In this document: positions 1 to 53,044 of the stretch, in pieces
How the letters are laid out: the number at the start of each line of letters is the position of its first letter
Position numbering within the stretch: the first letter of the stretch is position 1
From: a virus
Virus record (IMG/VR): IMGVR_UViG_3300047357_000359
Coordinates: 1 to 64,000 of that record
Strand: one strand, 5' to 3'
DNA length: 64,000 nt
Notes under the pieces: generated by a model
The model's database searches: none
Told to the model about the DNA's origin: nothing
Seen by the model: only the letters and a program-made list of their open reading frames with translations
Made by a program: the position numbers and the translations under genes

Positions 1-515
1 ACCCCTCGGGGCCAGCTAAGTCATTGATATCATTGGAGAATTTCAGGCCGACACCATTAGAACTCTAAAGCCAGATCTGACCGACCAGATCACCCCTGAC
101 CACCACCGGTCACCTCGAGGCCATGAGATATCCAATCACAAAGAAGATGAGATTCTATATAGTGAGAACCGTAGTGACCAACGTAGTGAAGAGTCTAGTG
201 ATGCTTATAGTAGTGAGCCTTATATAGCTATAGTGAGGGGTAGTGACTATAGTAGTGTAGTGAGCTCTTATAGTAGTATAGAGAGGGGTCAAGGTCCATA
301 CAGTATAGTAGAGTCAGAGTGAGGCCACGGAGTGGCCATTGTGGAATGTGGTTTAAATGGTTATGGCTGAGGCATTTCTGACTGCTCCCGAGGCCACCAT
401 AGGCACCATGGGTGTACGGTTTTGGCTCGATTTTACACGGTATTTCTAATTTTGCAAGAGTAGAATAATTTGATTGACTGAGGTGGCGACAGGCATAGTT
501 TGAATACTCTGACCT
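1..515. other. Non-coding left end of the window
   Basis: I see no convincing gene here. It holds the TAGTGA repeat array (160-263), a short hairpin GGCCA-cggag-TGGCC near 323-337, and three copies of GAGGCCA (about 115, 321 and 390). Positions 1-120 are more GC-rich than the rest. A plus-strand frame open from base 3 to a stop near 68 could be the tail of a gene cut by the window edge, but it is too short to call. The region lies beyond the end of the leftward early genes and could be an origin or regulatory region. That role is inference only. Confidence 0.5.
160..263. repeat. Array of eight TAGTGA hexamers
   Basis: Exact copies of TAGTGA start at 160, 172, 184, 196, 211, 231, 241 and 258. 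The first four are spaced exactly 12 bp apart. By chance this hexamer is expected about once per 4 kb per strand. Nine more copies lie between 9946 and 10677, inside genes. Regularly spaced copies in non-coding DNA suggest a protein-binding array such as replication iterons or a regulator site, but no binding partner can be named from the sequence. Confidence 0.8.
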
Positions 516-677
516 CTAATGGACAGTCATACCACTTCCATGCTTGTTCAGTGCCTCTACTATACGCTCAGCACGGTCTCTGTTGACTATAGACCCTATA
601 GCATAGTCTAGCATGGTGTCCCATATGTAGAGTAGGTCTGTGTCACTCTCAAAAATTGTGAATCTAGTCTGTTTCAT
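516..677 (-). CDS. Small hypothetical protein, 53 aa
   Basis: Open frame from ATG at 677 to TAG at 516, starting MKQTRFTIFE and ending GSGMTVH. It is acidic and soluble, with no membrane segment or recognised motif. No Shine-Dalgarno sequence is obvious before the ATG, so the start is uncertain. It is the most distal leftward gene, and a copy of the 13-mer TACAGCGGGGCCT (696-708) lies just upstream. Function unknown. Confidence 0.5.
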   Translation of the reverse strand: MKQTRFTIFESDTDLLYIWDTMLDYAIGSIVNRDRAERIVEALNKHGSGMTVH

Positions 678-828
678 TGTGCTAACCAATCTGCTTACAG
701 CGGGGCCTAAGCCCTTCTTAGCTATATTTAGACGCTTATAACAGAGTCAGACGCTAGTTTGACTCTTCTACTATGTAATGGTTGACTCTACTATACCTTT
801 ATCACTATATGGATTATGGGTGTAAATG

Positions 829-984
829 CTATTTTTCCTCGCTTGTGATAGAAGCTATGGCTGTTAAGGGTTTGATGTATTGAAGCCAATGACTAACATC
901 ATCACATGGATCGTCAACTCTGTATAGTGTAAAGAAGTCTAGATCTTTGTGATAGTCATCAATTATCGTTGTCGGGGAAGCCAT
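829..984 (-). CDS. Small hypothetical protein, about 51 aa
   Basis: I place the start at the ATG at 984 (MASPTTIIDDYHKDLDFF). It overlaps the end of the preceding gene by 26 bases, as many neighbours here do. A longer frame from 1032 is possible but overlaps more. The product is acidic and soluble with no recognised domain. Function unknown. Confidence 0.5.
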   Translation of the reverse strand: MASPTTIIDDYHKDLDFFTLYRVDDPCDDVSHWLQYIKPLTAIASITSEEK

Positions 985-1282
985 CTGTGTCGTTGTCAAT
1001 AACCAGCTTAGGGCGAAAGTGTCCACGGTCATCCGCTTCTCTTTGCTCCTTTATGGTAAGGGTAAGGTTTCCGTCCCCATCCTCTGACTCTTCTATGTTT
1101 ATGGTGTGATACTCTATGCCGAAGCGTTCTCCTAGTTCACGATTGAGGAGTCGTATATCATCCGCTGAATCGGCGTCCCACTGACAGTCGGCCAGTGTTT
1201 CACTGTTGTTTAAGACTGCTTCGATGAGTTGGCGTGTATCATCGTCTATGGTATAGCGAATGGGATCGTCTTTATCTCGCAT
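959..1282 (-). CDS. Hypothetical acidic protein, 107 aa
   Basis: The frame is open from 1402, but the ATG at 1282 is preceded by a strong AAGGAGG site, so the protein should begin MRDKDDPIRY. It is rich in Asp and Glu (TIDDDTRQ, ESEDGDG, DNDTDGFPDNDN at the end) and has no membrane segment. It heads a short overlapping pair with the gene ending at 829. I do not recognise a family. Confidence 0.65.
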   Translation of the reverse strand: MRDKDDPIRYTIDDDTRQLIEAVLNNSETLADCQWDADSADDIRLLNRELGERFGIEYHTINIEESEDGDGNLTLTIKEQREADDRGHFRPKLVIDNDTDGFPDNDN

Positions 1283-1482
1283 GGTAGGTCCTCCTTGGGG
1301 CACCGGAATCAATAACGTGGTAATATGGTTCTGCATAGATGGGTCTGGCGACTTTTGGTGTAGAGAGCCTGCTCTCGGAACAAAAATCGCGACCGCTACC
1401 ACTTCGTGGCTCTAGCTTGTATGACCCTGTCGAAAAATTTGGCTTTCCGACCGTGGGCTCTAAATGGCTTTGTTGGGTGATC

Positions 1483-1974
1483 TTATAAACCTCTTATCTT
1501 GTCTAAATCGGGGGTAATCTTCTTTTTATTCTTAACAAAAGCATCTGGCTGATATCGTTCTGGCCATACGTCTTGTTCTGTTAGTTCTCTAAGACCAAAC
1601 TGAGTTTCAATCACAACAGGTACCACAGAGCTGGGATCTGGCTTAGGATTGTATCCTGTTCTTACTGCTAGACCATCATCTGCTTCACGTCTTAGGTCCA
1701 CAGTCTTTGCAATGTGTCTACCGTATTCGAGTGCTTCATCCATTGTGCTGAAGTGCTTGATTGTGACATCTGTACCTTTGGGTAGGTCTGGATTGTCCCA
1801 TTTAACTGTATAAGCATTGGTAGGTGCTTTGAGTCCGGTCTTTTGACCAAGGACCTGTGTTCTTCTAACTGCCATCTTTTCTTTCCACAGATGACTCAGC
1901 TTGGGTGTTTCCTTTTGAGTTCGTTTGTCTACTAGATTTCGTAGCTCTGGGTCAATTTGAGATAACTTCGCCAT
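1483..1974 (-). CDS. Hypothetical protein, 163 aa
   Basis: Starts MAKLSQIDPELRNLVDKR from an ATG at 1974 preceded by AAGGAGACTAT. It is a basic N-terminal, soluble protein. The stretch IKHFSTMDEALEYGRHIAKT may be a helix of a small alpha/beta domain. No catalytic motif or membrane segment is visible. It lies in the leftward early block. Function unknown. Confidence 0.7.
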   Translation of the reverse strand: MAKLSQIDPELRNLVDKRTQKETPKLSHLWKEKMAVRRTQVLGQKTGLKAPTNAYTVKWDNPDLPKGTDVTIKHFSTMDEALEYGRHIAKTVDLRREADDGLAVRTGYNPKPDPSSVVPVVIETQFGLRELTEQDVWPERYQPDAFVKNKKKITPDLDKIRGL

Positions 1975-2000
1975 AATATAGTCTCCTTGTTCTACTATAT

Positions 2001-2180
2001 TTATGACAGTTTGAGTCGCTCTACAGTTTCTTCTGGTAGGTATGCCCTTAGGTGTTTCTGCTCTATGTTTTTAAGCATCTCATCTATGGCTGTGAAATCG
2101 CCCTGTGCCACATCAACTTTGATCTGATCTATCACAGTATCTATGAGCCTTTGGTTAATCAATCCTAGTTTCATCGTCAT
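2001..2180 (-). CDS. Small conserved-type phage protein, 59 aa
   Basis: Begins MTMKLGLINQRLIDTVIDQ and ends VERLKLS. A good AAGGGAG ribosome site lies before the ATG at 2180, and an internal ATG at 2174 (MKLGLI) is an alternative. Predicted all-helical. From memory, proteins of this type occur among small early genes of T4-like marine phages, but I cannot run a search. It overlaps the upstream 34-aa gene by 26 bases. Confidence 0.7.
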   Translation of the reverse strand: MTMKLGLINQRLIDTVIDQIKVDVAQGDFTAIDEMLKNIEQKHLRAYLPEETVERLKLS

Positions 2181-2259
2181 GCTCCCTTACACGAATTAAG
2201 ACATACATGACCAAGACTGATACAGGTATGCCCAAAAAGAAAAGACCTAGTAATTCCAT
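2155..2259 (-). CDS. Tiny single-pass membrane protein, 34 aa
   Basis: MELLGLFFLGIPVSVLVMYV is a clear transmembrane segment, followed by a charged tail (RVREHDDETRID). Its ATG overlaps the stop of the upstream gene as TAATG, and its end overlaps the next gene, so it is likely translated by coupling. Function unknown; small membrane proteins of this kind are common among phage early genes. Confidence 0.6.
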   Translation of the reverse strand: MELLGLFFLGIPVSVLVMYVLIRVREHDDETRID

Positions 2260-2828
2260 TAGGCCATTTCCTCTTCTTCTTGATCCATTTCATCAAACCA
2301 TTCTTCAAGTCCGAAGTCGCCCACTAGTTCATATAGGACCTTGTCTTCATTCCAGGTAGGATCTTTTCTAACTGTTTCTGATACATCATCATAATAAGCA
2401 TCGCCACCTTCTGAATCCCATACGCCGATAAAGTCCATACCTGATTCCCAATACTTGAGCTCTACATATAAACCGTCCATGTCGTCTGCGAGAGTTTGAA
2501 AAGCATTGATGGGTGGTGCCCAGGCAGAGTCTGCCCAACCTGTGATCTCACTAGTTCCGTCACCATTGTCCTTGTATTCTAATCCTTCGACATCCATGTC
2601 CCATTTAGTACCCCAGTTGTCTACTCTCCAGGCATACCAATTGTCATGTCCGTCTACGAGTGGTTGTGGTACACCTTCTTTGGGTGTAGGTGAAGTAGTG
2701 CCATCTAGTTCTTTTGGCATCGGTTTCATCGCTTGAAGAAAACCTACTTCATTTGCGTCATCCCACAGAGTCTTTACAGTTTCTGTTGAACCTTTGATAG
2801 TAATTGTATTATTGCACCAATTTGGCAT
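2259..2828 (-). CDS. Api92-like ferredoxin-fold protein (DUF1281 type)
   Basis: The N-terminus MPNWCNNTITIKG and the tryptophan-rich body (NWYAWRVDNWGTKWD, WADSAWAPP) match the phage Api92/DUF1281-type family, which has a ferredoxin-like fold and is common in phages and plasmids. No enzymatic role is established for it. At 189 aa it is a typical length. The C-terminus is very acidic (EEWFDEMDQEEEEM). It is first in a short run (2828 to 2001) downstream of the promoter at 2868-2896. Confidence 0.75.
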   Translation of the reverse strand: MPNWCNNTITIKGSTETVKTLWDDANEVGFLQAMKPMPKELDGTTSPTPKEGVPQPLVDGHDNWYAWRVDNWGTKWDMDVEGLEYKDNGDGTSEITGWADSAWAPPINAFQTLADDMDGLYVELKYWESGMDFIGVWDSEGGDAYYDDVSETVRKDPTWNEDKVLYELVGDFGLEEWFDEMDQEEEEMA

Positions 2829-2867
2829 TTTGCCCTCCTAATTGTTCGTTGCCCTTATTGTTCTTAT

Positions 2868-2896
2868 AGTATATGATCATTCGTGCTAGAAGTCAA
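2868..2896 (-). promoter_or_regulatory. Sigma-70-type early promoter
   Basis: On the minus strand, TTGACT (2896-2891) and TATACT (2873-2868) are separated by exactly 17 nt and preceded by GGGG. It would drive the leftward genes from 2828. Confidence 0.85.
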
Positions 2897-2902
2897 CCCC
2901 TA

Positions 2903-3508
2903 TTAAAGCTCTACTTTCTCCAATCTTGCATGACATTCTGCTCTTGATTCTTCACTCAATTCATTGAAGTAATCCATTAAGATATTGTATCCCACTTCAT
3001 GCTTATTCTCGCTCTTGAAGCCTGTTTCAGAATCAACATTCCAAAGCCTAGCTCTTTTGACCACAGTCATTGCATCGACATTGTCGTAGTCTGTAGTATC
3101 AAACTCGACCTCGTCCTGCCAACGGTTCATGATTTGAAATAGGTATTCGTTGATATGATCGTAATCGTCACCAATCCAATCATACTCATTGTCCTCTATA
3201 TATTTTCTAAGATCTTCATCACTCATTCTCATAAGTTCTGCAAGTCTATGCTCGTCATTGATTTGGTATTCACCTTTGACGTCACTGAACTCTATGCAAT
3301 TATAGAATCTGTTTGACTCTTGGCCAAGTTCTAGTTGCTTTGGATTAGATGAATATGAATCACCTGGATCCATTTCAATAGTTGCTAAGATGTATCTGAT
3401 TCTCTGTTCATCTTGCTGATACCAGTCTTGATTGTTATAAGCATATTCGTCAATGTCTTCAACCTTGCTAACGAATGCCTTTTTAATTTGTTCTCTTGAT
3501 ATATTCAT
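2903..3508 (-). CDS. Hypothetical acidic protein, 201 aa
   Basis: Starts MNISREQIKKAFVSKVEDID and is rich in Asp, Glu, Tyr and Trp (NNQDWYQQDEQR, DYDHINEYLFQ). No known motif or membrane segment. It has its own promoter at 3542-3570 and is followed by the next promoter, so it is probably a single-gene unit. The strongly acidic composition would allow it to be a DNA mimic or inhibitor, but that is speculation. Confidence 0.75.
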   Translation of the reverse strand: MNISREQIKKAFVSKVEDIDEYAYNNQDWYQQDEQRIRYILATIEMDPGDSYSSNPKQLELGQESNRFYNCIEFSDVKGEYQINDEHRLAELMRMSDEDLRKYIEDNEYDWIGDDYDHINEYLFQIMNRWQDEVEFDTTDYDNVDAMTVVKRARLWNVDSETGFKSENKHEVGYNILMDYFNELSEESRAECHARLEKVEL

Positions 3509-3541
3509 ATTGCCCTCTATGTTTTTATTGTTATTATATAC

Positions 3542-3570
3542 AGTATAGCCTCAGACTGCCTCAAAGTCAA
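3542..3570 (-). promoter_or_regulatory. Sigma-70-type early promoter
   Basis: Minus strand: TTGACT (3570-3565), 17-nt spacer, TATACT (3547-3542), then GTATATAA. Same cassette as at 4618 and 9742. Confidence 0.85.
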
Positions 3571-3579
3571 GCCTATGTC

Positions 3580-3900
3580 TTACCGAAAGTCCATCTCAGG
3601 TTGGCCAAAGATCTCAACAAAATCTAAGTTGATTTGGTGAATCTTCTTGATAATTTCTGTGATCTTATCAGCTGTCTGATAATGGATAACATCGTCACTA
3701 CCTTCTTCGCCGTAGTTAGGATGAACGCCAGGTAGTTGCACGAAATTACCATTTGCAAAGATCGCCACTTCATACAAGGGACCATTGCCTTTCATGTCTA
3801 CCACAGACAGTTCAAACTTACCTAATTCAAGTTGAGCTTGAACTCCTCCTTCTGCAACCGAGTGTGGTTCAAATTTCAAATCAGCAAATGAAGTTGCCAT
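3580..3900 (-). CDS. Hypothetical protein, 106 aa
   Basis: MATSFADLKFEPHSVAEGGV start, then a beta-rich middle (AQLELGKFELSVVDMKGNGPLYEVAIF) and a helical C-terminal part. No membrane segment. It lies 2 nt downstream of the LPD29-like gene and is presumably translated with it. Function unknown. Confidence 0.75.
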   Translation of the reverse strand: MATSFADLKFEPHSVAEGGVQAQLELGKFELSVVDMKGNGPLYEVAIFANGNFVQLPGVHPNYGEEGSDDVIHYQTADKITEIIKKIHQINLDFVEIFGQPEMDFR

Positions 3901-3902
3901 TG

Positions 3903-4571
3903 TTATTCTCCTTCGTGTTCTAATAGACTATAACCTAGTTTGGTCATCAATGTGTCTGCCAAGTTAGGGTAGCGACTTACAATGTCCTCTACGAACTTGT
4001 CTTGTTCTTTTGCTGTCATGCGAGCCACTTGTTCACTTGTTTCACTTATTGAACTCGCATCACTTATCGTTGAGTTGGTTGGCAATGTGATACTACCTAC
4101 AGAACCGTCAATAACTTCCGGTGTCCAACCGTTAAACGCCCTTGAGTTTTTAGACGCCTTTACGACCTTCTTAGAGACCTTCTTAGCGGCCTTTTGCATG
4201 AAGTAGGGCTTGTTCCACTTGCCTATGTTGATATCTGTATAATGTGATCTGTGAAAATAGTCTGTCATCGCATCATCATCACAGAAATAGTTAGGACCTT
4301 TCATTGCGGCCAATAGTTCTGTAAGGAACTTCTCTGCCTTACCACTATAATGATTTTCGATGTGATATGTATTAACTTGAATATAACCATCATCACTTCC
4401 GCCTTGACCCCACGTACCAAACTCTTTGAAGTCAATTGCTCCGCTTTGAATTGTCACTACCAATGTTGAATGATGACGGATTGAAATAGAACCTTTCATA
4501 CCGTATTTAGAAAGCACCTTCTTAATCTCTGGTGCTAGTTTTTTCTTATCTTCTTGTGAAACGTATGCCAT
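3903..4571 (-). CDS. LPD29-like domain protein, 222 aa
   Basis: The N-terminal 100 residues (LAPEIKKVLSKYGMKGSISI, then RHHSTLVVTIQSG) resemble the large polyvalent protein-associated domain 29 seen in many phage and plasmid proteins, whose biochemical role is not known. A Lys-rich linker (KKVSKKVVKASK) near residue 130 joins it to a Ser/Thr-rich and helical C-terminal part. It is led by the strong promoter at 4618-4646. The family assignment is from memory of the motif. Confidence 0.65.
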   Translation of the reverse strand: MAYVSQEDKKKLAPEIKKVLSKYGMKGSISIRHHSTLVVTIQSGAIDFKEFGTWGQGGSDDGYIQVNTYHIENHYSGKAEKFLTELLAAMKGPNYFCDDDAMTDYFHRSHYTDINIGKWNKPYFMQKAAKKVSKKVVKASKNSRAFNGWTPEVIDGSVGSITLPTNSTISDASSISETSEQVARMTAKEQDKFVEDIVSRYPNLADTLMTKLGYSLLEHEGE

Positions 4572-4617
4572 TTTGTGCCTCTCTGTTTAATTGCCTAATT
4601 GCCTAACTGTTATATAC

Positions 4618-4646
4618 AGTATAAGGTCATAGGGTCAGAAAGTCAA
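4618..4646 (-). promoter_or_regulatory. Sigma-70-type early promoter with repeated leader
   Basis: Minus strand: TTGACT (4646-4641), 17-nt spacer, TATACT (4623-4618), followed by GTATATAACAGTTAGGCA. The promoters at 8254 and 9742 share the same leader, so this is a duplicated promoter-leader cassette. Confidence 0.85.
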
Positions 4647-4791
4647 CCTTTTTCTTGCCGAAATATACCTTAGGGGAGTTGGCGCAAACGCCACCAACTC
4701 CTTGCTATTGAGCAACCTGACTCATTCCGTCCTTCACCTTCCTGTCGGTGTGGTTGCCGGTCAGCTATGCCGATAAATTACGGTAATGATA
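4647..4791 (-). other. Structured stretch downstream of tRNA-Ser
   Basis: On the minus strand this follows tRNA-Ser. It contains an 8-bp hairpin GGAGTTGG/CCAACTCC (about 4675-4701) with no U-tract, plus a smaller palindrome near 4770-4785. A 10-codon frame (GTG AAG GAC...) with an AGGA site is possible but not convincing. It could be tRNA 3' processing sequence or an unrecognised small RNA. Confidence 0.35.
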
Positions 4792-4881
4792 TGGCGGAAG
4801 TGGTAGGATTCGAACCCACGGTAGAGTCACCCCTACGACGGTTTAGTAAACCGCTCCTTTAAACCACTCAGGCACACTTCC
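4792..4881 (-). tRNA. tRNA-Ser, anticodon ACT, CCA encoded
   Basis: Cloverleaf on the minus strand: acceptor GGAAGTG/CACTTCC, discriminator G, encoded CCA, D-arm CCTGAGTGG, long variable arm and T-loop TTCGAAT. The anticodon stem GCGGT/ACCGT encloses loop TTACTAA, giving anticodon ACT for the Ser codon AGU. The long variable arm and G73 fit serine. The usual bacterial anticodon for this box is GCT, so A at position 34 is odd. It lies between early genes. Confidence 0.9.
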
Positions 4882-4889
4882 TTATCATA

Positions 4890-5060
4890 TCAGTGAATGG
4901 TATCACCCACTGTTGGACAAGAGTATTCCATTACGGATACAATGTCCTTAATCTTTATAGAAGGATCTTGTTCTTCTAGGGTAAGACAAGCGTCTCTGAA
5001 ATCCATTGCATTGACTTCAATTTCTTCAGTCTCTGTTTCAAAGACAAATAATTTTACCAT
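4890..5060 (-). CDS. Small hypothetical acidic protein, 56 aa
   Basis: Reads MVKLFVFETETEEIEVNAMD to the stop at 4890. The start ATG at 5060 follows AAGGATAGAAT. Soluble, acidic, predicted alpha/beta. It sits between the 65-aa gene and tRNA-Ser in the transcript started at 5330. Function unknown. Confidence 0.65.
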   Translation of the reverse strand: MVKLFVFETETEEIEVNAMDFRDACLTLEEQDPSIKIKDIVSVMEYSCPTVGDTIH

Positions 5061-5071
5061 GTATTCTATCC

Positions 5072-5269
5072 TTATCTTACTTTGTGAGGTTTCTTCTTAT
5101 TCTTGTTCTTATTGAGCTTGATACCATTTTCTTCTCTATACATTTCACCTGTCATGCCTTCTGGTATCTTTTCGATCTTTCCGCCCTTGTCTAAGAACTC
5201 CTTCATTTTTTTGTTTAGGTATTCCTGTTTATCTAGTTGTTCCTGTGTTGGACTTGGTCCTAATGACAT
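5072..5269 (-). CDS. Small basic hypothetical protein, 65 aa
   Basis: MSLGPSPTQEQLDKQEYLNK start, ending in a Lys/Asn-rich tail (KLNKNKNKKKPHKVR) that could bind nucleic acid. A site AGAAAGGC precedes the ATG. It is the first gene after the promoter at 5304-5330. No recognised family. Confidence 0.65.
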   Translation of the reverse strand: MSLGPSPTQEQLDKQEYLNKKMKEFLDKGGKIEKIPEGMTGEMYREENGIKLNKNKNKKKPHKVR

Positions 5270-5303
5270 ATATGCCTTTCTGTTTGTTTAATGTAGCCTA
5301 TAC

Positions 5304-5330
5304 AGTATAGCCTAAACATCAGAAAGTCAA
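5304..5330 (-). promoter_or_regulatory. Early promoter, short spacer
   Basis: Minus strand: TTGACT (5330-5325) and TATACT (5309-5304) are only 15 nt apart, followed by GTATAGG. It matches the other early promoters apart from spacing. Confidence 0.65.
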
Positions 5331-5331
5331 G

Positions 5332-5598
5332 TTATTCTTTTACCAATTCTGCTTCGTCAATATCCCAACATTGATCCCAAGGAACAATCATTTTTCTGTT
5401 TGATTCCTGATCGATAATTTCGAACAATCTCTTTTCAGAATCTCTAGTTTGGATAAGGCCAAATCCTTCGTACCAACCTGGTCCTTTTAATGGTACATCT
5501 GATAGCCCTGGTGGGCGACCGTGAATGTCTAACATCATCTCTGCCTTAAAATGACAGGCATATGATTGACCTGCTTTAATATCTTCTGGCTTAATCAT
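5332..5598 (-). CDS. Hypothetical protein, 88 aa
   Basis: MIKPEDIKAGQSYACHFKAE start. Beta-rich, compact and soluble, with one short Gly-rich turn (LKGPGWYEGFG); it could be a small SH3-like barrel. It overlaps the 61-aa gene by 8 bases and belongs to the run 6211 to 5332. Function unknown. Confidence 0.7.
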   Translation of the reverse strand: MIKPEDIKAGQSYACHFKAEMMLDIHGRPPGLSDVPLKGPGWYEGFGLIQTRDSEKRLFEIIDQESNRKMIVPWDQCWDIDEAELVKE

Positions 5599-5776
5599 TC
5601 TTCATATCTCCTATGATTTTATTTATGATCCTCTCAGCATCAGGATAGGTAGACATGGACTCAACAATTCTATCAATAGCATCTAACTCTAGTGAATTAT
5701 AAATCTCACGACAGTTCATGCCCTGATACGGTTGAGTCCATGAATAGCTCATAGACCATTCAGCTTTCTTACTCAT
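5591..5776 (-). CDS. Hypothetical protein, 61 aa
   Basis: MSKKAEWSMSYSWTQPYQGM start, helical C-terminal half (DRIVESMSTYPDAERIINK). Its stop overlaps the next start, and its ATG directly follows the HAD phosphatase stop, so it is probably co-translated. No known motif. Confidence 0.65.
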   Translation of the reverse strand: MSKKAEWSMSYSWTQPYQGMNCREIYNSLELDAIDRIVESMSTYPDAERIINKIIGDMKND

Positions 5777-6211
5777 TTAGAAATCTCCTGGTGCGACTTG
5801 GACTGCTCTCAAGCCTCTACTTCTCCACATATCAACGACACTTGTTCTGTCATCAAATACCAATGTGGGGTTGTATCCTGCTTCAAGCATTGTATCAAGC
5901 ATTCCACTCTTAAGCTCGTAGTCAGGTCTGTAGTCGTTGTCGCTTCTAAGATAAAGCTCATTGAATACTAAACCTTGACCCATTAATTGTTTGAGAGTGA
6001 TTGCTCTTTGTGATTTGTTTCTTCCTGACGCAACCAAAATTCTGTTGCCGGCCTTTTGTAATGCAATGGCTACCGCAAAGACATCTAAGTTCGGAGTGTC
6101 TTCAGAAGTCAAATCACGGAACGAATTCCAATCCTTTGGTTTCTGTTCAACGAACTTTTTTCTATGCTCGATGTCCATTAAAGTGCCATCGATGTCAAAG
6201 ATGATATCCAT
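5777..6211 (-). CDS. HAD-family phosphatase (polynucleotide 3'-phosphatase type)
   Basis: A complete small HAD fold. Motif I DIDGTLMD (residues 6-13) supplies the nucleophile Asp, motif II is VASGRNKS, and the C-terminal FDDRTSVVDMWRSRGL resembles the phosphatase domain of T4 polynucleotide kinase. At 144 aa it lacks the kinase half. In T4 this domain removes 3' phosphates from cut tRNA before ligation. The same job here would fit with the ligase-like gene at 32193, but the link is inferred. Confidence 0.8.
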   Translation of the reverse strand: MDIIFDIDGTLMDIEHRKKFVEQKPKDWNSFRDLTSEDTPNLDVFAVAIALQKAGNRILVASGRNKSQRAITLKQLMGQGLVFNELYLRSDNDYRPDYELKSGMLDTMLEAGYNPTLVFDDRTSVVDMWRSRGLRAVQVAPGDF

Positions 6212-6221
6212 ACTCTTGCCT

Positions 6222-6368
6222 CTATTTTTCTGTTAGTTCTTGCACCACGGTTGCACCCTTGTTGACGCCTTCTTTGAGCATCTCAGTTGCACCATCTATG
6301 TCACCTGGGTTCATATAAAGATATGCACCTACGGCTCCAATTGCTATAAACATAATAGCCTTGAACAT
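6222..6368 (-). CDS. Small membrane-anchored protein, 48 aa
   Basis: MFKAIMFIAIGAVGAYLYMN is a signal-anchor segment, followed by an amphipathic helical tail (EMLKEGVNKGATVVQELTEK). An AGGAGGCAA site precedes the ATG at 6368, and the promoter at 6406-6434 is upstream. Function unknown. Confidence 0.7.
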   Translation of the reverse strand: MFKAIMFIAIGAVGAYLYMNPGDIDGATEMLKEGVNKGATVVQELTEK

Positions 6369-6405
6369 ATTTGCCTCCTAATTAAGTTTGCCTCATTACT
6401 CTTAC

Positions 6406-6434
6406 AGTATAAGGCCAGACGTATCAAAAGTCAA
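6406..6434 (-). promoter_or_regulatory. Sigma-70-type early promoter
   Basis: Minus strand: TTGACT (6434-6429), 17-nt spacer, TATACT (6411-6406), then GTAAGAGTAATGAGGCA. The leader resembles that at 7254. Confidence 0.85.
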
Positions 6435-6435
6435 C

Positions 6436-6726
6436 CTATTTTGGTGAAGTTTTCTTGGCAGGGACCTTCTTCTTTTTAGGTCTACGACCCCAGGTATAGA
6501 AATTGATATTCTCTGGGTCTGTTCTTTGACATGGTGGGCAGACGGTGACCTCGTTCTTTTTAAGCCATTCGTCCATTAGTTGTCGATCGCTATCGGTTGT
6601 GGTATCTCTACTCAAATCTGTTTCTCCTTCCGAGTATTTTAAGTCTACAGCCTTTGCGATTCCATGTGACCCAAGTGGTGGGTAGAAATCTATATAAGAT
6701 TGGCCATGGCCGGCTAATTCCGTCAC
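6436..6726 (-). CDS. Downstream part of a probable frameshifted gene, 96 aa
   Basis: This frame opens at a GTG (6726) inside the gene above and reads TELAGHGQSYIDFYPPLGSH, with CPPCQR (a possible half zinc site) and a Lys-rich end. A TAG stop lies shortly upstream in this frame. The sequence looks like the natural continuation of the 6841 frame after about residue 38, needing a +1 shift. It may instead be an independent overlapping gene. Confidence 0.5.
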   Translation of the reverse strand: MTELAGHGQSYIDFYPPLGSHGIAKAVDLKYSEGETDLSRDTTTDSDRQLMDEWLKKNEVTVCPPCQRTDPENINFYTWGRRPKKKKVPAKKTSPK

Positions 6727-6841
6727 TCCATACCGTAGTTCGGTGTTTACCTTTTCCTATCCATGAAAGTCCTACACAGGCCGGATAATTCCAAGTCAAT
6801 TGAATCTCCAGATCAGGTATTCCGTTCCTTTCATTAGGCAT
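6608..6841 (-). CDS. Upstream part of a probable frameshifted gene, 77-aa frame
   Basis: Starts MPNERNGIPDLEIQLTWNYP from an ATG with AGAAAG upstream. The sequence is protein-like to about TTVW (residue 38), then becomes unlike a real protein, while the +1 frame (6726-6436) becomes good. That suggests either a programmed frameshift or a one-base error in assembly. No slippery heptamer is apparent. Confidence 0.5.
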   Translation of the reverse strand: MPNERNGIPDLEIQLTWNYPACVGLSWIGKGKHRTTVWSDGISRPWPILYRFLPTTWVTWNRKGCRLKILGRRNRFE

Positions 6842-6847
6842 AGATAT

Positions 6848-6946
6848 TTACTTCTTTCTATCTGGTGGGTCTTCGTTGTCCCACATCAGCATCATTCCAA
6901 TAGGCAGAAGCAAAATGCCTATGACTATAAGAATACTACCGAGCAT
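6848..6946 (-). CDS. Tiny membrane protein, 32 aa
   Basis: MLGSILIVIGILLLPIGMML forms a transmembrane segment, then an acidic-basic tail (WDNEDPPDRKK). The start (6946, or 6949) overlaps the end of the preceding gene, suggesting coupled translation. Function unknown. Confidence 0.6.
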   Translation of the reverse strand: MLGSILIVIGILLLPIGMMLMWDNEDPPDRKK

Positions 6947-7223
6947 CATATATCCTATGATTCTTGATGAACCATTTTTCTAAGACAGGCAAACCAAATT
7001 CATCTTCGTCTACCACAATCGTTGCGACTGTCTTGATCACATTAGCAAAACGCCAACCTGTCATACCGCAGACATCTTTGCCACCTACCCATACCTTGTG
7101 AGGAAAGTCTTCGCCTAGGTGATTGTTCAAAGGCTCATCGTTGAGGCTATATTCAAAAACATTGCCTACTGACTTTTCAGTGAATGCTCCTATTGGATCT
7201 TTGGTATAGGTATAGTATGCCAT
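6936..7223 (-). CDS. Hypothetical protein, 95 aa
   Basis: I choose the ATG at 7223 (MAYYTYTKDPIGAF) because AAGGAGAGGCAA lies directly before it; the frame is open 7 codons further. Soluble, mixed alpha/beta, with a Gly/Trp stretch (HKVWVGGKDVCGMTGWRF). Heads the run driven by the promoter at 7254-7282. No family recognised. Confidence 0.7.
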   Translation of the reverse strand: MAYYTYTKDPIGAFTEKSVGNVFEYSLNDEPLNNHLGEDFPHKVWVGGKDVCGMTGWRFANVIKTVATIVVDEDEFGLPVLEKWFIKNHRIYDAR

Positions 7224-7253
7224 TTGCCTCTCCTTGTGCCTCATTATTCTCTT

Positions 7254-7282
7254 AGTATAAGGTCAGACCTTGAGTATGTCAA
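7254..7282 (-). promoter_or_regulatory. Sigma-70-type early promoter
   Basis: Minus strand: TTGACA (7282-7277), 17-nt spacer, TATACT (7259-7254), then AAGAGAATAATGAGGCA. Close to consensus. Confidence 0.88.
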
Positions 7283-7297
7283 CCTTTAATTTATTTC

Positions 7298-7729
7298 TTA
7301 CGCCGCGAACGCTTCGAAGAGCTCTTTGACGTGTCGGCAATTGCCACGAAATTGATGGCCTGGACAAGAGCAGGATGATCTCCCACTCCTTTCGACTTCA
7401 ACTTCATATAGTGTTCCTGTCGAACCTTTAACAGTTCTTTTAAGGACTTCACCGTCACTTCCGGCTTGAAGCGATTGCTCTGACGATTTGGATCTTTCCA
7501 CCCCATCTATCTCTACAATCCTTTCTAGTTGAACGACCCGCATTGGAAAATGGGGTTGATCAGTTGTTAGGCCCACCTCATTAGGTTTGAACCACTTCTC
7601 GTATCGAACTTCGCCTTCATAGAAATTGAACTCGTTTGATACAGAACTGACTCCGGGGGCATACCTATCACGGTAAGGATACATACCATTCTTAACTTTA
7701 ATCCTTACCCATTGACCATGCTTCAGCAT
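7298..7729 (-). CDS. SWIM zinc-finger protein, 143 aa
   Basis: The C-terminus carries a SWIM-type zinc site: C-S-C-P-G-H-Q-F-R-G-N-C-R-H (about residues 120-133), the CxCxnCxH pattern that binds DNA or protein. The N-terminal two-thirds is beta-rich (MLKHGQWVRIKVKNGMYPYR). An overlapping frame at 7291-7506 is a shadow. Its start overlaps the end of the 68-aa gene by 7 bases. Probably a nucleic-acid-binding early protein; its target is not evident. Confidence 0.75.
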   Translation of the reverse strand: MLKHGQWVRIKVKNGMYPYRDRYAPGVSSVSNEFNFYEGEVRYEKWFKPNEVGLTTDQPHFPMRVVQLERIVEIDGVERSKSSEQSLQAGSDGEVLKRTVKGSTGTLYEVEVERSGRSSCSCPGHQFRGNCRHVKELFEAFAA

Positions 7730-7929
7730 AGAAAATTCACCGGTTGTCTTTTAATATTTGAAAAAATTGCTTTGACTCTTGCATTGTACCTTTCTTCAGT
7801 CATTGCTAAATTACGAGCCTTCTGTTCCCACATTGCTCGAGTAAGCTCGTCGAGTTGTGGATTAGTATCGAGCAACCTCTTAATGGAGGCCGCCCTTTGA
7901 TACTGTTTCTCTTCGGAGTAAGGTCCCAT
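7723..7929 (-). CDS. Helical hypothetical protein, 68 aa
   Basis: Start chosen at the ATG overlapping the upstream stop (TAATG at 7929-7931), giving MGPYSEEKQYQRAASIKRLL. Strongly helical and basic. The open frame extends upstream to 7977, but that part overlaps the conserved gene at 7929-8219. Function unknown. Confidence 0.65.
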   Translation of the reverse strand: MGPYSEEKQYQRAASIKRLLDTNPQLDELTRAMWEQKARNLAMTEERYNARVKAIFSNIKRQPVNFLC

Positions 7930-8219
7930 TAAGCACCTATTCCTAATTTTGTAAGATGGTTTCCTGGTACTCTCCATTGCCCTTTAGCACCACAATCAAC
8001 TGTGACATATTTCTGAGCAATTTTCTTAACCTTGCCTGAAACATCAACACCACGTTTACCTGTGAAAGAAACAATGTCGCCAACCATAAATGATCGGACC
8101 GCCTGTTTGGTAAGGTGTGTTCTTTTGAGTTTGATTGCTTCGATAACTTCATTCAATTGATCGTTATCCATTTGGTAGATTAATTCACTTGCCTTGGTTA
8201 CTAGATTTGCCATTTTCAT
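7929..8219 (-). CDS. Conserved-type small phage protein with SH3/KOW-like half
   Basis: MKMANLVTKASELIYQMDND start, then helices (VIEAIKLKRTHLTKQ) and a beta-barrel-like half (FMVGDIVSFTGKRGVDVSGK). The second half resembles KOW/SH3 folds. From memory, similar proteins are widespread small genes of T4-like cyanophages. Translation may begin at 8213 (MANLV). Driven by the promoter at 8254-8282. Confidence 0.75.
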   Translation of the reverse strand: MKMANLVTKASELIYQMDNDQLNEVIEAIKLKRTHLTKQAVRSFMVGDIVSFTGKRGVDVSGKVKKIAQKYVTVDCGAKGQWRVPGNHLTKLGIGA

Positions 8220-8253
8220 TTTTCCCTCTGGTTATTGCCTAATTGTTATATAC

Positions 8254-8282
8254 AGTATAAGGTCAAAAGACCTAAAAGTCAA
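8254..8282 (-). promoter_or_regulatory. Sigma-70-type early promoter with repeated leader
   Basis: Minus strand: TTGACT (8282-8277), 17-nt spacer, TATACT (8259-8254), then GTATATAACAATTAGGCA, the same cassette as at 4618 and 9742. Confidence 0.85.
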
Positions 8283-8285
8283 CCC

Positions 8286-9698: not shown

Positions 9699-9741
9699 AA
9701 TTTTCCCTCTGTGGTTGCCTAATTGCCTAACTGTTATATAC

Positions 9742-9770
9742 AGTATAAGGTCAGAAGGTTAGAAAGTCAA
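9742..9770 (-). promoter_or_regulatory. Sigma-70-type early promoter with repeated leader
   Basis: Minus strand: TTGACT (9770-9765), 17-nt spacer, TATACT (9747-9742), then GTATATAACAGTTAGGCA. Upstream is ACCAAAACCGG, a block also seen before the promoters at 6406 and 10329. Confidence 0.87.
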
Positions 9771-9797
9771 CCGGTTTTGGTAAATTAAATTGAAAGA

Positions 9798-10064
9798 TTA
9801 ATAATGAAGCACGACCCTATCGGGTGAAGTATCATTCCAATCAAATCCTTCTCTTTTGGCCTGTGCCTGGGCTCCCAATACTTCGTTAGGAATGAAAGTG
9901 AAATTCTCACCACATGATATGCAGACATCGCCATGAGTATCACCGTAGTGAGGACTCTCTGTAGTGAGCCATTCTAATCGTTTTGACTCCATTGTAGAGT
10001 GTAGTGACGAACAGCCTGTAGTGACGAGGCCTATTAGTAAAATTAAACTTGCTTTTTTAATCAT
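9798..10064 (-). CDS. Lipoprotein, 88 aa
   Basis: A type II signal peptide, MIKKASLILLIGLVTTGCSS, with lipobox VTTGC and Cys18 as the lipidated residue. The mature part has a CxxC pair (DVCISCGEN). Likely anchored in a host membrane. Early expression of a lipoprotein could mean superinfection exclusion or envelope remodelling, but no family is recognised. Several TAGTGA hexamers fall inside it. Confidence 0.75.
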   Translation of the reverse strand: MIKKASLILLIGLVTTGCSSLHSTMESKRLEWLTTESPHYGDTHGDVCISCGENFTFIPNEVLGAQAQAKREGFDWNDTSPDRVVLHY

Positions 10065-10093
10065 ATGTCTTAGGCCTCCATCCGCCTATTTAA

Positions 10094-10321
10094 TTACTGA
10101 GCCTGTTTATTGAATAAAGATTTAATTGAATTCCAAGTTCTACCTAGTTGTTCTTTACTGTCAGCCCAACTTTCTTTTTGGTATGCAATCGTTTTCTCTT
10201 TTTCATTAGTTGCCCAAGTGTTTACCTTGTCAGCGATAGTATCGTGTGCCATAGCCTTAGTCGTTATCACAACCAAAAACACTATACAAGCGATCCATAT
10301 CATTGTAGTTTTTGTTATCAT
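10094..10321 (-). CDS. Small exported or membrane protein, about 75 aa
   Basis: MITKTTMIWIACIVFLVVIT is a signal or anchor segment with AMA just after it, followed by a helical tail (WATNEKEKTIAYQKESWADS). The open frame starts further up, but a promoter overlaps there; its start point falls almost on the ATG at 10321, so the message may be leaderless, or translation may start at 10303. Function unknown. Confidence 0.6.
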   Translation of the reverse strand: MITKTTMIWIACIVFLVVITTKAMAHDTIADKVNTWATNEKEKTIAYQKESWADSKEQLGRTWNSIKSLFNKQAQ

Positions 10322-10328
10322 ACTATAT

Positions 10329-10357
10329 AATATATACTCACTTGCCGTCATTGTCAA
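10329..10357 (-). promoter_or_regulatory. Sigma-70-type early promoter
   Basis: Minus strand: TTGACA (10357-10352), 17-nt spacer, TATATT (10334-10329). The expected start point is within a few bases of the ATG at 10321. Confidence 0.85.
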
Positions 10358-10453
10358 CTGTTTTGGTTAAATTAAATCGACAGGCAGAGAAAGACTTCTA
10401 GAATACAACCTAAGATAGTTTTGGTAGTTGTGATACGAGAATTGGGCTAGATG

Positions 10454-11050
10454 CTACAGCGGGGCCTTGGGTAATTCTTTGCCCGGATAGAACTCTGTAG
10501 TGGTCTTCCATTTTTCAACAGTAGGTTCTGCTGATGCCACATGGTGTAAATGGATATTGGCCATGTCGTGTTTCTCTAGTTCTTCTAAGACTAGTGAGCT
10601 GTAGACAAATAGGTTAGTGATGTCTTTTGCTGTAGTGATGACTTTATATAGTGAGGTGTTATTAGCACTCGTAGTGAAGGTCTGTATAGCAGTGACGCCA
10701 TCAAACTTACTAAAGTCTTTGCTGTATCTATTACCATGTAACCAAGTAATCTTATCAGGTATGCTGTTACTGTTCATTTTAATATCTTCTGCAACAAGTC
10801 CATGCATACTAACGTCTTTAAAGCCTGCTTCTATTAGTCTATCATATGTTATAGAGCCAATACAATGCACCTTTTGATCTAACAAAGGTTTAATATCGTG
10901 TTGATAGTGCCTAACGCAATCAATATGCGTGACAAGTAATGGTTGTATTGGTGCTACTATTTGGTCTGCTGTAGGTTCTGTTATTAAACATGGAAACCAT
11001 TTACTATTGGCATCTAAACTAGGCTTGTTTAGCTGTGTGTAAACATTCAT
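10454..11050 (-). CDS. Possible uroporphyrinogen-III synthase (HemD)-like protein
   Basis: About 198 aa from the ATG at 11050 (MNVYTQLNKPSL); a GTG at 11065 is possible. The order of segments recalls HemD: an N-terminal half-domain, a linker VHCIGSITYDRLIEAGF (compare the HemD pattern of Gly then a T/aL..GF segment), a LHGNRYSKD turn, and a last segment FVYSSLVLEELE. HemD closes the tetrapyrrole ring. The similarity is weak by eye; the ALA synthase at 18152 and heme oxygenase at 62484 make it attractive. The identity needs a profile or structure search. Confidence 0.4.
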   Translation of the reverse strand: MNVYTQLNKPSLDANSKWFPCLITEPTADQIVAPIQPLLVTHIDCVRHYQHDIKPLLDQKVHCIGSITYDRLIEAGFKDVSMHGLVAEDIKMNSNSIPDKITWLHGNRYSKDFSKFDGVTAIQTFTTSANNTSLYKVITTAKDITNLFVYSSLVLEELEKHDMANIHLHHVASAEPTVEKWKTTTEFYPGKELPKAPL

Positions 11051-11131
11051 ATAGGTATTTACCACAAATTTGTAATATTATTAGTCATTATGATTGATGC
11101 AGAACAATCAAAATAGGCCCTTTCCAAACCG

Positions 11132-11144
11132 TACAGCGGGGCCT
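11132..11144 (+). repeat. 13-mer TACAGCGGGGCCT, one of three copies
   Basis: Identical copies occur at 696-708, 10455-10467 (overlapping the end of the HemD-like gene) and here, 3 nt before a late promoter. All lie in the same orientation. Three exact 13-mers in an AT-rich phage sequence are unlikely by chance. Role unknown. Confidence 0.6.
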
Positions 11145-11196: not shown

Positions 11197-11421
11197 ATGT
11201 CAAACTTAAGAAACTTAAACATCAACCTAGAGGTTGGTCAACAGATCCTAGTGGGTCAAAACAACGAGCATGCCAAGATAACAAAGATTGAATACTTCGA
11301 CAAGACTGGAGAGATTAGTATTAATACTACTCGAGGTCCACGCAAAGCTCTAACATTTAAGTTATGTGATAACTCTGACAGTCAATCTTATTCTAGGAAC
11401 CCTGCAGACAAATATAGATAA
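11197..11421 (+). CDS. Small hypothetical protein, 74 aa
   Basis: MSNLRNLNINLEVGQQILVG start after a strong AGAAGGAGAATCCC site. Beta-rich N-terminal half (a likely small barrel) and a polar tail. First gene of a late run that includes the 79-aa and YqgE-like genes. No recognised family. Confidence 0.75.
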   Translation: MSNLRNLNINLEVGQQILVGQNNEHAKITKIEYFDKTGEISINTTRGPRKALTFKLCDNSDSQSYSRNPADKYR

Positions 11422-13821: not shown

Positions 13822-15924
13822 CTATTGTTGTGTTTCGTATTGTTGCATGATCATCTCGTCCATGATTTTATCTTGCGCCATATCATACAGTATGCCTGCT
13901 GGGTCTAATAGCTGTGGCATGTCCGCATAAATCTGTTCGCTTGTATACCAATCTAATGGTAAAGCGTTTTGTTTGTCTAAGTATGCCTTAAAGTTTTCTT
14001 GATCTGTTAAACTAGACATTAGTGCTATCTTAGTAGCTTCGTTTATAGCACTATAAGTATCTGCCATTGCGGCTAAGATTCTAGTTGCAATCTTTTGTTT
14101 AGCCTTATCTACTGCCTCTTTGATGCGTTTTGCTTTTTGTTCTTTAGACTCAGTTCGTTTGGAAGCATTTCCTTTTTTAGCATCTCCGGATTTTCCTTTA
14201 TCGTCGGCTTTGGATTCGGTTTTTGCTTCTTTGGTATCTCCTCCAGCATCAGACTCTCCACTATCTGACCCTTCACTTTCCTCTCCACTTTTATCCACTG
14301 ACTGTTCCACATCACTACTGGACTCTTGGTCGGTCTCAGTTGTGTTCTCATCCGTCTCGGTTTCGGTTGATTCGCTTCCCTCACTTGTTTCCTCAGTTGA
14401 TGTTTCCGTTTCTGCCGTAGTAGACTCTTCGCTACTTGCTTCACTTGTATTTACTTCTACTTCAGTAGTAGGTTCAGTTGTTTCTGTTGTAGTTGTTTCT
14501 ACTTCAGCTGGTGCTGTCTCTACTTCTGCTACTGTAGTCTCTGGCATGTCTAATTCTGGTAGTTCTATTTCAGCTATAGCATCTGCAACAGCAACGTCAA
14601 CTTGAGCACCAACATCTGCTTCAATTGATTCTACACTAGGCATATCAACAGTTGTACTGCCAGAGTCAAAGCTATCAAGACTTGCTACTAGTGTTACTTC
14701 TGCTATTTGTTCTACTTGTACAACACCTGTTTCTAAGTTTGTTGAACTCATTTCTACAGTTGCTACATTGGCTGTTTCGTCTACTTCAACTGTAAATTCT
14801 AATTCAACGCCACCGCCATTACTGTCTACTATTTCTATTTCAAATGACTCTACTTCTGCGTAGTTAATAGGTTCAATAACAGTATCAGCTACAGGATCGC
14901 CTATGTAAACACTTGTGAGTATTGACTCTTCTGAATTAAAAACTGTTTCTTGATTGCTTAAAATTATGTTTGTGATTGTTTCAGTGACTGACGTAATAGC
15001 ATCATACGTTAATTTTATATAAGGATCAGAGAATATTGGTCCAAACATCTGTTGATGGTATCCTGCGTCAACTCCCCATAGATTCATCTTAGCCCAAACT
15101 GATTCGTATTGGTTCTGTGGTATTGTATAGTTATAAGCGTAGGTTTGTGTTCCTGAATAAGTTAAAGTTTCGCGGTGGGTTAATGAAGCAACTCGAGTTC
15201 CGCCTTGTCCGCCAGGTGCTCCTGAGAACATGTAAATAGATACTTTAATTAGATCTTTACAGTCTCCACTAGTACTAGAACAAACCGGCACAGTTGCGTT
15301 TGATTTGTGTGACTCAACAGTAACACCATAATTTACATCAAAGCCTGCTTGTATCTCAGCTTCTGTCAACAGTTGGGTTATCTCAACATACTCAGAGCCA
15401 ACTTGTCCACCACCTAGTGAATTAGATCCATTAGGTTGCCAATTGATATCAGAGCTGGCATTTGAATTTGGAACATTTGCTTGTGGACCCATGCAGGCTT
15501 CACCTGTTTGTAATGTTCCACTATAGCTACAAGTACCACTGCCAACACTAACAGTACCTTGTGTACTCCAACCATTACTTGTGTCGATGGCTCCTAATTG
15601 ATTAGCTGTGGTTGTTTCTACAGCAGTTGTAGTTGTAACTGTTTGTTGTTCTGATGTTGATATTTGTTCTATTACAGTTTCAGTGAATAGTGTAGTTGTA
15701 GTTGTTTCTTCGAAGCCACCATTTAGACCAACTTCAGTGCCTGTAACAACAGATGTTACATCAACAGATGTTACAGTACCACCATTAGGTCCTGTGTCAC
15801 CTACATTATACTGTTGGTCGTATGCTAAACTAGAGTAAGAATAACAACATAGCAAGACTACCAAGGCCCACGCCCCAAGTCGTTGCTTTGTTCTTCCATT
15901 CTTTTTCGTATGCTTCAAGATCAT
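13822..15924 (-). CDS. Large exported Thr/Glu-rich protein, 700 aa
   Basis: The N-terminus has a basic stretch and a hydrophobic core (LGAWALVVLLCCYSYSSLAY), a signal peptide. A Thr-rich beta region follows (GFEETTTTTLFTETVIEQIS), with cysteines in short pairs, then Val/Glu-rich repeats, a long acidic Ser/Thr/Glu low-complexity region (about 440-560), a Lys-rich segment and a helical C-terminus. It overlaps the upstream exported gene by 95 bases. Possibly a surface adhesin or virion fibre; exact role unknown. Confidence 0.75.
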   Translation of the reverse strand: MILKHTKKNGRTKQRLGAWALVVLLCCYSYSSLAYDQQYNVGDTGPNGGTVTSVDVTSVVTGTEVGLNGGFEETTTTTLFTETVIEQISTSEQQTVTTTTAVETTTANQLGAIDTSNGWSTQGTVSVGSGTCSYSGTLQTGEACMGPQANVPNSNASSDINWQPNGSNSLGGGQVGSEYVEITQLLTEAEIQAGFDVNYGVTVESHKSNATVPVCSSTSGDCKDLIKVSIYMFSGAPGGQGGTRVASLTHRETLTYSGTQTYAYNYTIPQNQYESVWAKMNLWGVDAGYHQQMFGPIFSDPYIKLTYDAITSVTETITNIILSNQETVFNSEESILTSVYIGDPVADTVIEPINYAEVESFEIEIVDSNGGGVELEFTVEVDETANVATVEMSSTNLETGVVQVEQIAEVTLVASLDSFDSGSTTVDMPSVESIEADVGAQVDVAVADAIAEIELPELDMPETTVAEVETAPAEVETTTTETTEPTTEVEVNTSEASSEESTTAETETSTEETSEGSESTETETDENTTETDQESSSDVEQSVDKSGEESEGSDSGESDAGGDTKEAKTESKADDKGKSGDAKKGNASKRTESKEQKAKRIKEAVDKAKQKIATRILAAMADTYSAINEATKIALMSSLTDQENFKAYLDKQNALPLDWYTSEQIYADMPQLLDPAGILYDMAQDKIMDEMIMQQYETQQ

Positions 15925-22937: not shown

Positions 22938-22993
22938 ACAACGTTCAGCCGATATAGGCCGGAAGTAAGCAACTATGCTGAAGGAACGCACTT
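22938..22993 (+). promoter_or_regulatory. Glutamine riboswitch (glnA RNA motif)
   Basis: Contains the motif order of the glutamine-I class: CGTTCA at the 5' side, then GGAAGTAAGC, a short hairpin, GCTGAAGGAACGCACT at the 3' side. CGTTC pairs with GAACG to close the three-way structure. This class binds glutamine and is known upstream of nitrogen genes in cyanobacteria and in marine phages. It controls the small gene at 23015. Confidence 0.82.
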
Positions 22994-40324: not shown

Positions 40325-40484
40325 AACATGTGAAACATGTCGTATTGCAATCAGCGAGGACGGCATTGAAATAGATTCAAGTCAAGGTGATATTATATTA
40401 GAAGCAACAGTACTTGGTGGTATTGTAATTGTTATAGCATTATTATATGTAGGCAAGAAGTGGATAGACAGGAAATTTAAGTAA
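40317..40484 (+). CDS. Small membrane protein, 55 aa
   Basis: Starts MSETCETCRIAISEDGIEID from the ATG overlapping the upstream stop (ATGAGTGA). A CETC pair at the N-terminus, then a transmembrane segment (ATVLGGIVIVIALLYVGKKW). Lies between two oxygenase-like genes and overlaps both. Function unknown. Confidence 0.65.
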   Translation: MSETCETCRIAISEDGIEIDSSQGDIILEATVLGGIVIVIALLYVGKKWIDRKFK

Positions 40485-41703: not shown

Positions 41704-41709
41704 TAAATA
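41703..41709 (+). promoter_or_regulatory. T4-type late promoter
   Basis: TGATAAATACTAA, 26 nt before the tail fibre start. Confidence 0.7.
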
Positions 41710-41734
41710 CTAATAGCAAATTAGGAGAAATATA

Positions 41735-53027: not shown

Positions 53028-53041
53028 TGAGTGTATAAATA
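53011..53041 (+). promoter_or_regulatory. Overlapping sigma-70 and T4 late promoter for tmRNA
   Basis: TTGACA (53011-53016), 17-nt spacer, TATAAATA (53034-53041): a near-consensus -10 (TATAAA) that is also a perfect T4 late core. It lies at the end of the 52722 gene. Confidence 0.82.
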
Positions 53042-53044
53042 TAC

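Follow-up and report, generated by a model that had tools for sequence, protein, structure and literature searches.

The window analysed here is a 64,000-bp stretch of viral DNA, bases 1-64000 of a 73,727-bp IMG/VR virus record that is classed as linear, and its base 1 is therefore a contig end. An array of TAGTGA hexamers begins only 159 bp from this left end, upstream of a short block of sequence that is shared with relatives. All records used in the comparisons are fragments, so absences are weak evidence throughout. The left end of the window carries the following features.

17..40, + strand: single copy of the TAAGTCATTGATATCATTGGAGAA element, matched in L284 (two free positions)
160..263, + strand: station 1, eight TAGTGA at spacings of 12, 12, 12, 15, 20, 10 and 17 bp; proposed initiator iterons
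323..337, + strand: hairpin GGCCAC-gga-GTGGCC with a GNA triloop, pairing kept in relatives
492..511, + strand: conserved block GGCATAGTT-NN-AATACTCTG, the invariant anchor of the region
516..689, - strand: small leftward ORF with its stop just right of the block
698..707, + strand: CAGCGGGGCC motif downstream of the block

The TAGTGA array at the left end

The hexamers of station 1 start at 160, 172, 184, 196, 211, 231, 241 and 258, all on the + strand, just as the first-pass annotation had placed them (eight in 104 bp, the first four exactly 12 bp apart). Across the window TAGTGA is ordinary in number (52 copies on both strands versus 47.8 expected); what sets the array apart is clustering. 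Its cluster score is 14.3 (8 copies in 104 bp), whereas in 100 shuffles no 6-mer went above 8.5 (self-overlapping 6-mers were excluded) and TAGTGA itself stayed at 3 or below. At the 110-bp scale, station 1 is the top cluster among all 6-mers of the record. An even spread of the hexamer, which would have counted against a special role, can thus be set aside. An Rfam search of window positions 1-1000 gave no match up to E=1.

The annotation had also called the array region non-coding, and this is very probably correct. An open stretch in frame +2 crosses the array (20 to 319), but it holds no ATG, GTG or TTG before 233, and a search with its 100-residue peptide among viral contigs found no relative. 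When six arrays were compared, no single frame was open in all of them: a stop falls inside the array in every + frame of L128, L127, L052 and L239, the arrays of L128 and L052 have no open frame on either strand, and only the window and L284 have a + strand frame that runs through the array without a stop. The L284 frame belongs to a 91-aa ATG ORF (10193-10468) with Ser-Glu/Ser-Asp pairs, which crosses the array and overlaps a small ORF in a different frame. Given the lack of a shared open frame, the late start and the lack of peptide relatives, the most likely status of the window from position 1 to about 515 is intergenic. A Ser-rich protein tail in frame +2 was considered and rejected, as it has no relatives and four of the six arrays are closed in all + frames.

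The conserved block and its surroundings in relatives

Relatives were sought by array and by block. Scanning for three TAGTGA at a 12-bp phase returned at least 119 stretches, and among the matches listed L052 is the one clear relative of the region. Most of the others listed are apparently unrelated hexanucleotide or Ser-Asp/Glu coding repeats; L094, L059 and L081 match three window ORFs each, and L111, L026 and L057 one each. AGTGAT hexanucleotide runs occur at several places in L047 and L070 (contig 3300006802_010118, 17 kb). L052 matches 14 window ORFs at 34-76% identity (a few of these ORFs being antisense to others) and carries eleven TAGTGA, of which the first nine run at exactly 12-bp intervals without a break, although this array is not an independent finding because the array pattern located L052. 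Comparison of L052 with the window brought out the block GGCATAGTTNNAATACTCTG (window 492-511), and a scan by the block alone returned L128, L127, L129, L125, L126 and again L052.

The left 8.7 kb of the window is mostly collinear with L128, at 29-84% protein identity. Arrays stand at the same place, located without an array query, in L128 (6 copies), L127 (4), L239 (8) and L284 (4). Linkers differ among the arrays while the TAGTGA hexamer stays constant, and in relatives at about 29-84% protein identity the arrays lie some 150-375 bp upstream of the block. The array is thus conserved in divergent relatives, and non-conservation, the other objection foreseen in the annotation, does not hold. 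A polynucleotide kinase-like gene at window 5777-6211 (- strand; PHROG 505, E=2e-34) is 75% identical in L128. Four similar elements in the leftward region of the window (4591-4648, 6387-6448, 8220-8284 and 9701-9772) give cross-matches of 76-95% with relatives and look like sigma-70 promoters by eye.

A relaxed block scan yielded 28 stretches. Eight of them (L283, L285, L286, L287, L288, L295, L296 and L297) were set aside for having neither the CAGCGGGG motif nor a similar flank; L290 was retained on its flank, L282 on the CAGCGGGG motif despite a differing flank, and L284 on its similarity to L128, given that the L284 contig stops at +123. The remaining 20 stretches and the window make 21, from which removal of the near-copies L289, L299 and L125 left 18 non-redundant loci; two pairs among these are related, L293/L294 (75% alike) and L291/L298 (80% alike). 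CAGCGGGG[CT]C occurs in one to four copies downstream of the block in 15 of the 18 loci, a count that is not independent since the CAGCGGGG motif helped to select them. No opposite-strand copies of the CAGCGGGGCC type were found in six sequences compared.

Eleven of the 18 loci hold fewer than three TAGTGA. Lineages that lack TAGTGA can have clustered repeats of another kind at the array's place: L290 has eight copies of CAGAGCC, L291 and L298 have paired ACCGG sites, and L126, with a 90% AT tract in the same region, has five copies of a 16-nt repeat. The small leftward ORF at 516-689 has a homologue in L128 (40% identity over 43 aa) and a counterpart of similar size in L127. Directly before the array, L128 and L284 have a small Lys-rich ORF whose product is a candidate initiator only.

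Three to six perfect DnaA boxes lie within -800 to +200 of the block in 8 of the 18 loci, where shuffles expect about 0.02 or fewer per locus; the proportion is 8/26 with the excluded eight restored and 6/16 with related pairs counted once. Spacing between boxes is 11-12 bp in five of the eight box-bearing loci. The boxes span -731 to -615 in L052, -440 to -352 in L127 and -388 to -320 in L291, and three of the four in L129 lie downstream of the block. Near the block, TTWTNCACA is absent from seven loci (the window, L128, L239, L300, L281, L290 and L126) and occurs once in L284, L292 and L282. The window lacks the region of the L052 boxes because it is cut at -491; the regions of the L127 and L291 boxes do fall within its coverage. 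Its one perfect box lies elsewhere, at 11876.

Pairs of dif-like sites occur about 560-700 bp upstream of the block in L052 and L127, that is, in 2 of the 18 loci. The L052 pair has 0 and 1 mismatches over 22 arm bases, the better site showing all the arm bases of E. coli dif, and the L127 pair has 1 and 4; five shuffles of L052 gave no site with four mismatches or fewer. At up to five mismatches, no dif-like site was found in the window's record, and such sites were found in G001 and G002. GNA hairpins with other stem bases and intact pairing recur at -150 to -190 in L128, L127, L284 and L300, so that the hairpin is present in 5 of 18 loci, the window included, versus 0.12 expected. As for base composition, the maximum AT content in 60 bp near the block is 68% in the window (modest) and 90% in G006. 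GC skew does not clearly mark an origin in G000 or G003; G004 has a local GC-skew minimum close to the block.

A near-palindromic element, TAAGTCATTGNNATCATTGGAGAA, lies at window 17-40. L284 has a copy about 740 bp upstream of its block and L300 has similar sequences, but the viral scan for the TAAGTCATTG element found, besides L284, two contigs without an array (L301 and L302), and the element is therefore not origin-specific. Three short block queries against 50,697 phage records gave no convincing match (best E 0.09); against phage records, window 1-8000 matched at a tRNA only and the L128 region not at all. A peptide search with gene 1483-1974 found no relatives, and the plasmid search a single 37-bp match. 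Sixteen Bacteroidota matches to the block in genome contigs, 15 of them sharing one other flank, were judged unrelated; of the other motifs they show just one, TTATCCACA, as a single copy in 7 of the 16.

The carriers of the region are best read as uncultured T4-like phages. A gp23 capsid gene is present in three of 24 records, G006 (144 kb), G016 (278 kb) and G018 (383 kb), and G006 also has a T4 portal gene; gp23 was not found in the window's record and 20 other fragments. Domain searches of these fragments for replication, partition and recombination proteins were negative: no match over the cut-off to Rep_3 (0/12 records) or RepA_N (0/12, with one weak match in G016), and none to DnaA_C (0/14 distinct records), ParB_N (0/9) or Phage_integrase (0/24, including the contigs of L052 and L127). 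The RepA_N search is a weak test because the RepA_N control exceeded the cut-off in none of 14 genomes.

Several further observations concern these records. In three Pelagibacter phages, a gene matches positions 40001-43000 of G003 (L149:1-3000) with 70-77% DNA identity; the matches cover 3-9% of this query and hint at a host group. The window has a permuted tmRNA gene of alphaproteobacterial type at 53007-53312 (+ strand; Rfam RF01849, 124 bits; RF04321, 103 bits). Its fatty acid desaturase gene (21812-22876) is soon followed by a glutamine riboswitch aptamer at 22940-22992 (+ strand; RF01739, 54.6 bits).

A second station inside two genes

TAGTGA is dense again about 10 kb away, within two leftward genes.

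9946..10024, + strand: station 2a, four TAGTGA inside a lipoprotein-like gene (9798-10064, - strand)
10457..10466, + strand: CAGCGGGGCC at the 203-aa gene's 3' end; G003 and L239 have it at the equivalent position
10592..10695, + strand: station 2b, five TAGTGA plus one CAGTGA within a 203-aa gene (10454-11065, - strand)
11134..11143, + strand: CAGCGGGGCC upstream of both the 203-aa gene and a rightward gene (11197-11421)

The copies lie at 9946, 9962, 10002, 10019, 10592, 10615, 10633, 10649 and 10672, which bears out the annotation's count of nine in 9946-10677, and their density goes beyond chance: nine in 732 bp versus a maximum of four in 200 shuffles. When the record was scanned at the 750-bp scale, station 2 ranked second among 6-mers, after TCTACT at 14108-14849. 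The copies fall in mixed codon phases (2, 1, 0, 1 in the lipoprotein-like gene and 0, 1, 1, 0, 1 in the 203-aa gene).

Relatives extend the pattern. L005 keeps all nine TAGTGA, a weak test alone at 92-95% DNA identity, and a peptide search with the 203-aa protein found three close contigs, none reaching the left end. In G003 and L239 the protein is conserved at about 50% identity, and the equivalent two genes hold six and seven copies of [TC]AGTGA, respectively, a motif widened in this way after the relatives were seen. Synonymous-codon shuffles leave few such copies: 10 were observed versus a mean of 1.9 in the window (0/5000), 6 versus 1.4 in G003 (P=0.0008) and 7 versus 1.2 in L239 (0/5000). 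Thirteen other leftward window genes have one [TC]AGTGA copy altogether. On the array strand of G000 and G003, the three densest 300-bp [TC]AGTGA windows are station 1 and both halves of station 2; one 300-bp window on the other strand of G003 also has three copies. G001 has no match to the 203-aa protein and, near the matching place, only a pair of copies. Station 2 is under DNA-level constraint beyond protein and codon usage, and the annotation's idea of a second station gains accordingly, as the sites recur in G003 and L239 and pass the synonymous-codon test.

The CAGCGGGGCC motif frames the 203-aa gene in a similar manner across relatives. It lies upstream of the gene likewise in G003 and L239, the same motif is present in G001, and G003 keeps CAGCGGGGCC although its 203-aa-type protein ends just before the motif. 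Some copies (window 11134, G003 34760 and L293) are followed after 5-6 bp by a TAAATACTATTAC-like sequence, which we take to resemble a T4 late promoter. The 203-aa protein itself shows a weak likeness to HemD (uroporphyrinogen-III synthase; Pfam HEM4, E=0.14, below the cut-off), and its AlphaFold model, with a mean pLDDT of 60, is too weak to confirm it.

Readings of the locus and known systems

We read 160-263 as station 1 of an iteron origin in a T4-like phage, with station 2 as a remote control or titration station, and give this reading a probability of roughly two in three. Direct repeats combined with DnaA boxes, a conserved block and a mini-hairpin are what an origin for initiator assembly would be expected to contain; the locus shows clustered direct repeats that are conserved in relatives and lie in an intergenic region, a status that is likely for the window's copy. 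A phage-encoded putative initiator would bind the TAGTGA(G) sites, many of them about one helical turn apart, and would act with host DnaA, at least in the relatives that bear DnaA boxes, to open or load the origin beside the block at 492-511. The sites of station 2 may bind the same protein for control or titration, or might instead serve as a second initiation site or for looping/bridging. The host would supply DnaA, and also XerCD where dif-like sites occur. The binding protein, the initiation and the control role are all inferred. The first-pass annotation had offered an origin, a partition site and a regulator's binding site side by side; the DnaA clusters and dif-like sites of relatives strengthen the first of these, and the partition option loses ground.

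The strongest competitor, though an unlikely one, is an operator: the array would gather regulator sites for early transcription and have no part in starting replication. The promoter-like intergenic repeats at 4591-4648, 8220-8284 and 9701-9772, together with gene starts in the L127 and L128 intergenic regions, are compatible with such a role, and the intragenic sites could act as roadblocks. Yet the L128 array lies between the 3' ends of convergent ORFs, a poor place for an operator (L128 being the one locus checked), other lineages keep an array there with other motifs, and an operator leaves the DnaA-box clusters and dif-like sites of relatives unexplained. It is still less probable that the array is a centromere-like partition site, or a DNA-packaging/recombination site, bound by a phage protein. 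Direct repeats with dif-like sites do resemble plasmid stability regions, and paired stations could be bridged, but DnaA boxes point to initiation, ParB_N is missing from all nine records searched, which makes a partition site less likely, and Phage_integrase is missing from all 24, fragments in every case. Finally, we consider it very improbable that the array is the coding end of a Ser-Asp/Glu-repeat gene extending past the contig end, or that it is low complexity arising by chance: for all the open frame +2, the L284 ORF with its Ser-Glu/Ser-Asp pairs and the many unrelated contigs among the matches listed in which the same phased pattern seems to encode Ser-Asp/Glu repeats, shuffles exclude chance, the + frames are closed in four arrays, the 100-residue frame is without detectable relatives, and the station 2 copies fall in mixed codon phases of leftward genes and outnumber those in synonymous shuffles.

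If the iteron-origin reading is right, a conserved modular DnaA-box origin would make the use of the host initiator by T4-like phages testable, and would let firing limits and iteron-type cell sharing among phages be tested. The conserved block could also provide a sequence tag for candidate origins in metagenome phage fragments. More speculatively, and with the balance somewhat against it, an uncultured group of T4-like phages (contigs to 383 kb) may use a modular origin of chromosome or plasmid type plus a remote iteron station for copy control or bridging. The origin would then be built from DnaA boxes, lineage-specific iterons, a mini-hairpin, the block and sometimes a dif pair, through which host XerCD would resolve dimers in some members, while the iterons in two genes about 10 kb away would form the copy-control or bridging station. 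Iteron swapping between lineages would in that case be a phage counterpart of plasmid incompatibility groups.

Our literature search found nothing on point for DnaA boxes in T4-like or jumbo phages, nor for phage dif sites, iterons or origins of this kind; several known systems nevertheless share parts of the arrangement. Filamentous phages carry 28-bp XerC/XerD sites on their genomes, and phage dif-like sites are described as often having a centre that is longer and an XerD arm that is degenerate (PMC3025954). The sites here, unlike those, come as pairs in two contigs, at distances of 106 and 74 bp, with DnaA boxes nearby and 0-4 mismatches in the arms. The origins of PLE satellites, parasites of Vibrio phage ICP1, resemble the present case in being phage-linked iterons that differ between lineages. 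They differ in the iterons themselves, which are reported to be semi-palindromes of about 30 bp bound by RepA_N initiator proteins (PMC7145576, PMC8263062).

T4 is the obvious phage for comparison. Its replication has been reported to begin from R-loops at least at some origins, and its oriE is described as having 12-nt repeats at even spacing, with no settled role (PMC3016281). Within 6 kb around the annotated oriE, we found that the clearest periodic repeats peak at lag 24 (0.73; lag 12 gives 0.30). They are part of gene 5 and code for an octad repeat in its protein; these are presumably the cited oriE iterons. T4 oriE thus has its repeats within gene 5, beside repEA/repEB, whereas the window's array lies outside such a gene, is most likely intergenic, and differs in sequence and in neighbours. 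Because the T4 repeats are inside gene 5 and have their best lag at 24, oriE is analogous at most.

Bacterial replicons offer further parallels. Like oriC-type origins with TTATCCACA DnaA boxes, the region has clusters of perfect boxes near the block (8 of 18 loci); unlike them, the window itself has no boxes near its array, and the phage records are without DnaA_C (0/14, fragments), so that host DnaA would be needed. The V. cholerae ori2 and iteron plasmids come with an RctB/Rep-type gene, for which neither Rep_3 nor RepA_N exceeded the cut-off here, and the remote sites of ori2 differ from ours in that ours fall within coding genes. What these replicons share with the window and its relatives is a set of short head-to-tail sites at near-helical spacing with an adjacent DnaA box (present here in relatives). 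For ori2, with its RctB 12-mers, the likeness in arrangement extends to the remote clusters of sites: on V. cholerae chromosome II, distant sites are reported to titrate the initiator RctB (PMC6090056), the role that station 2 may play here.
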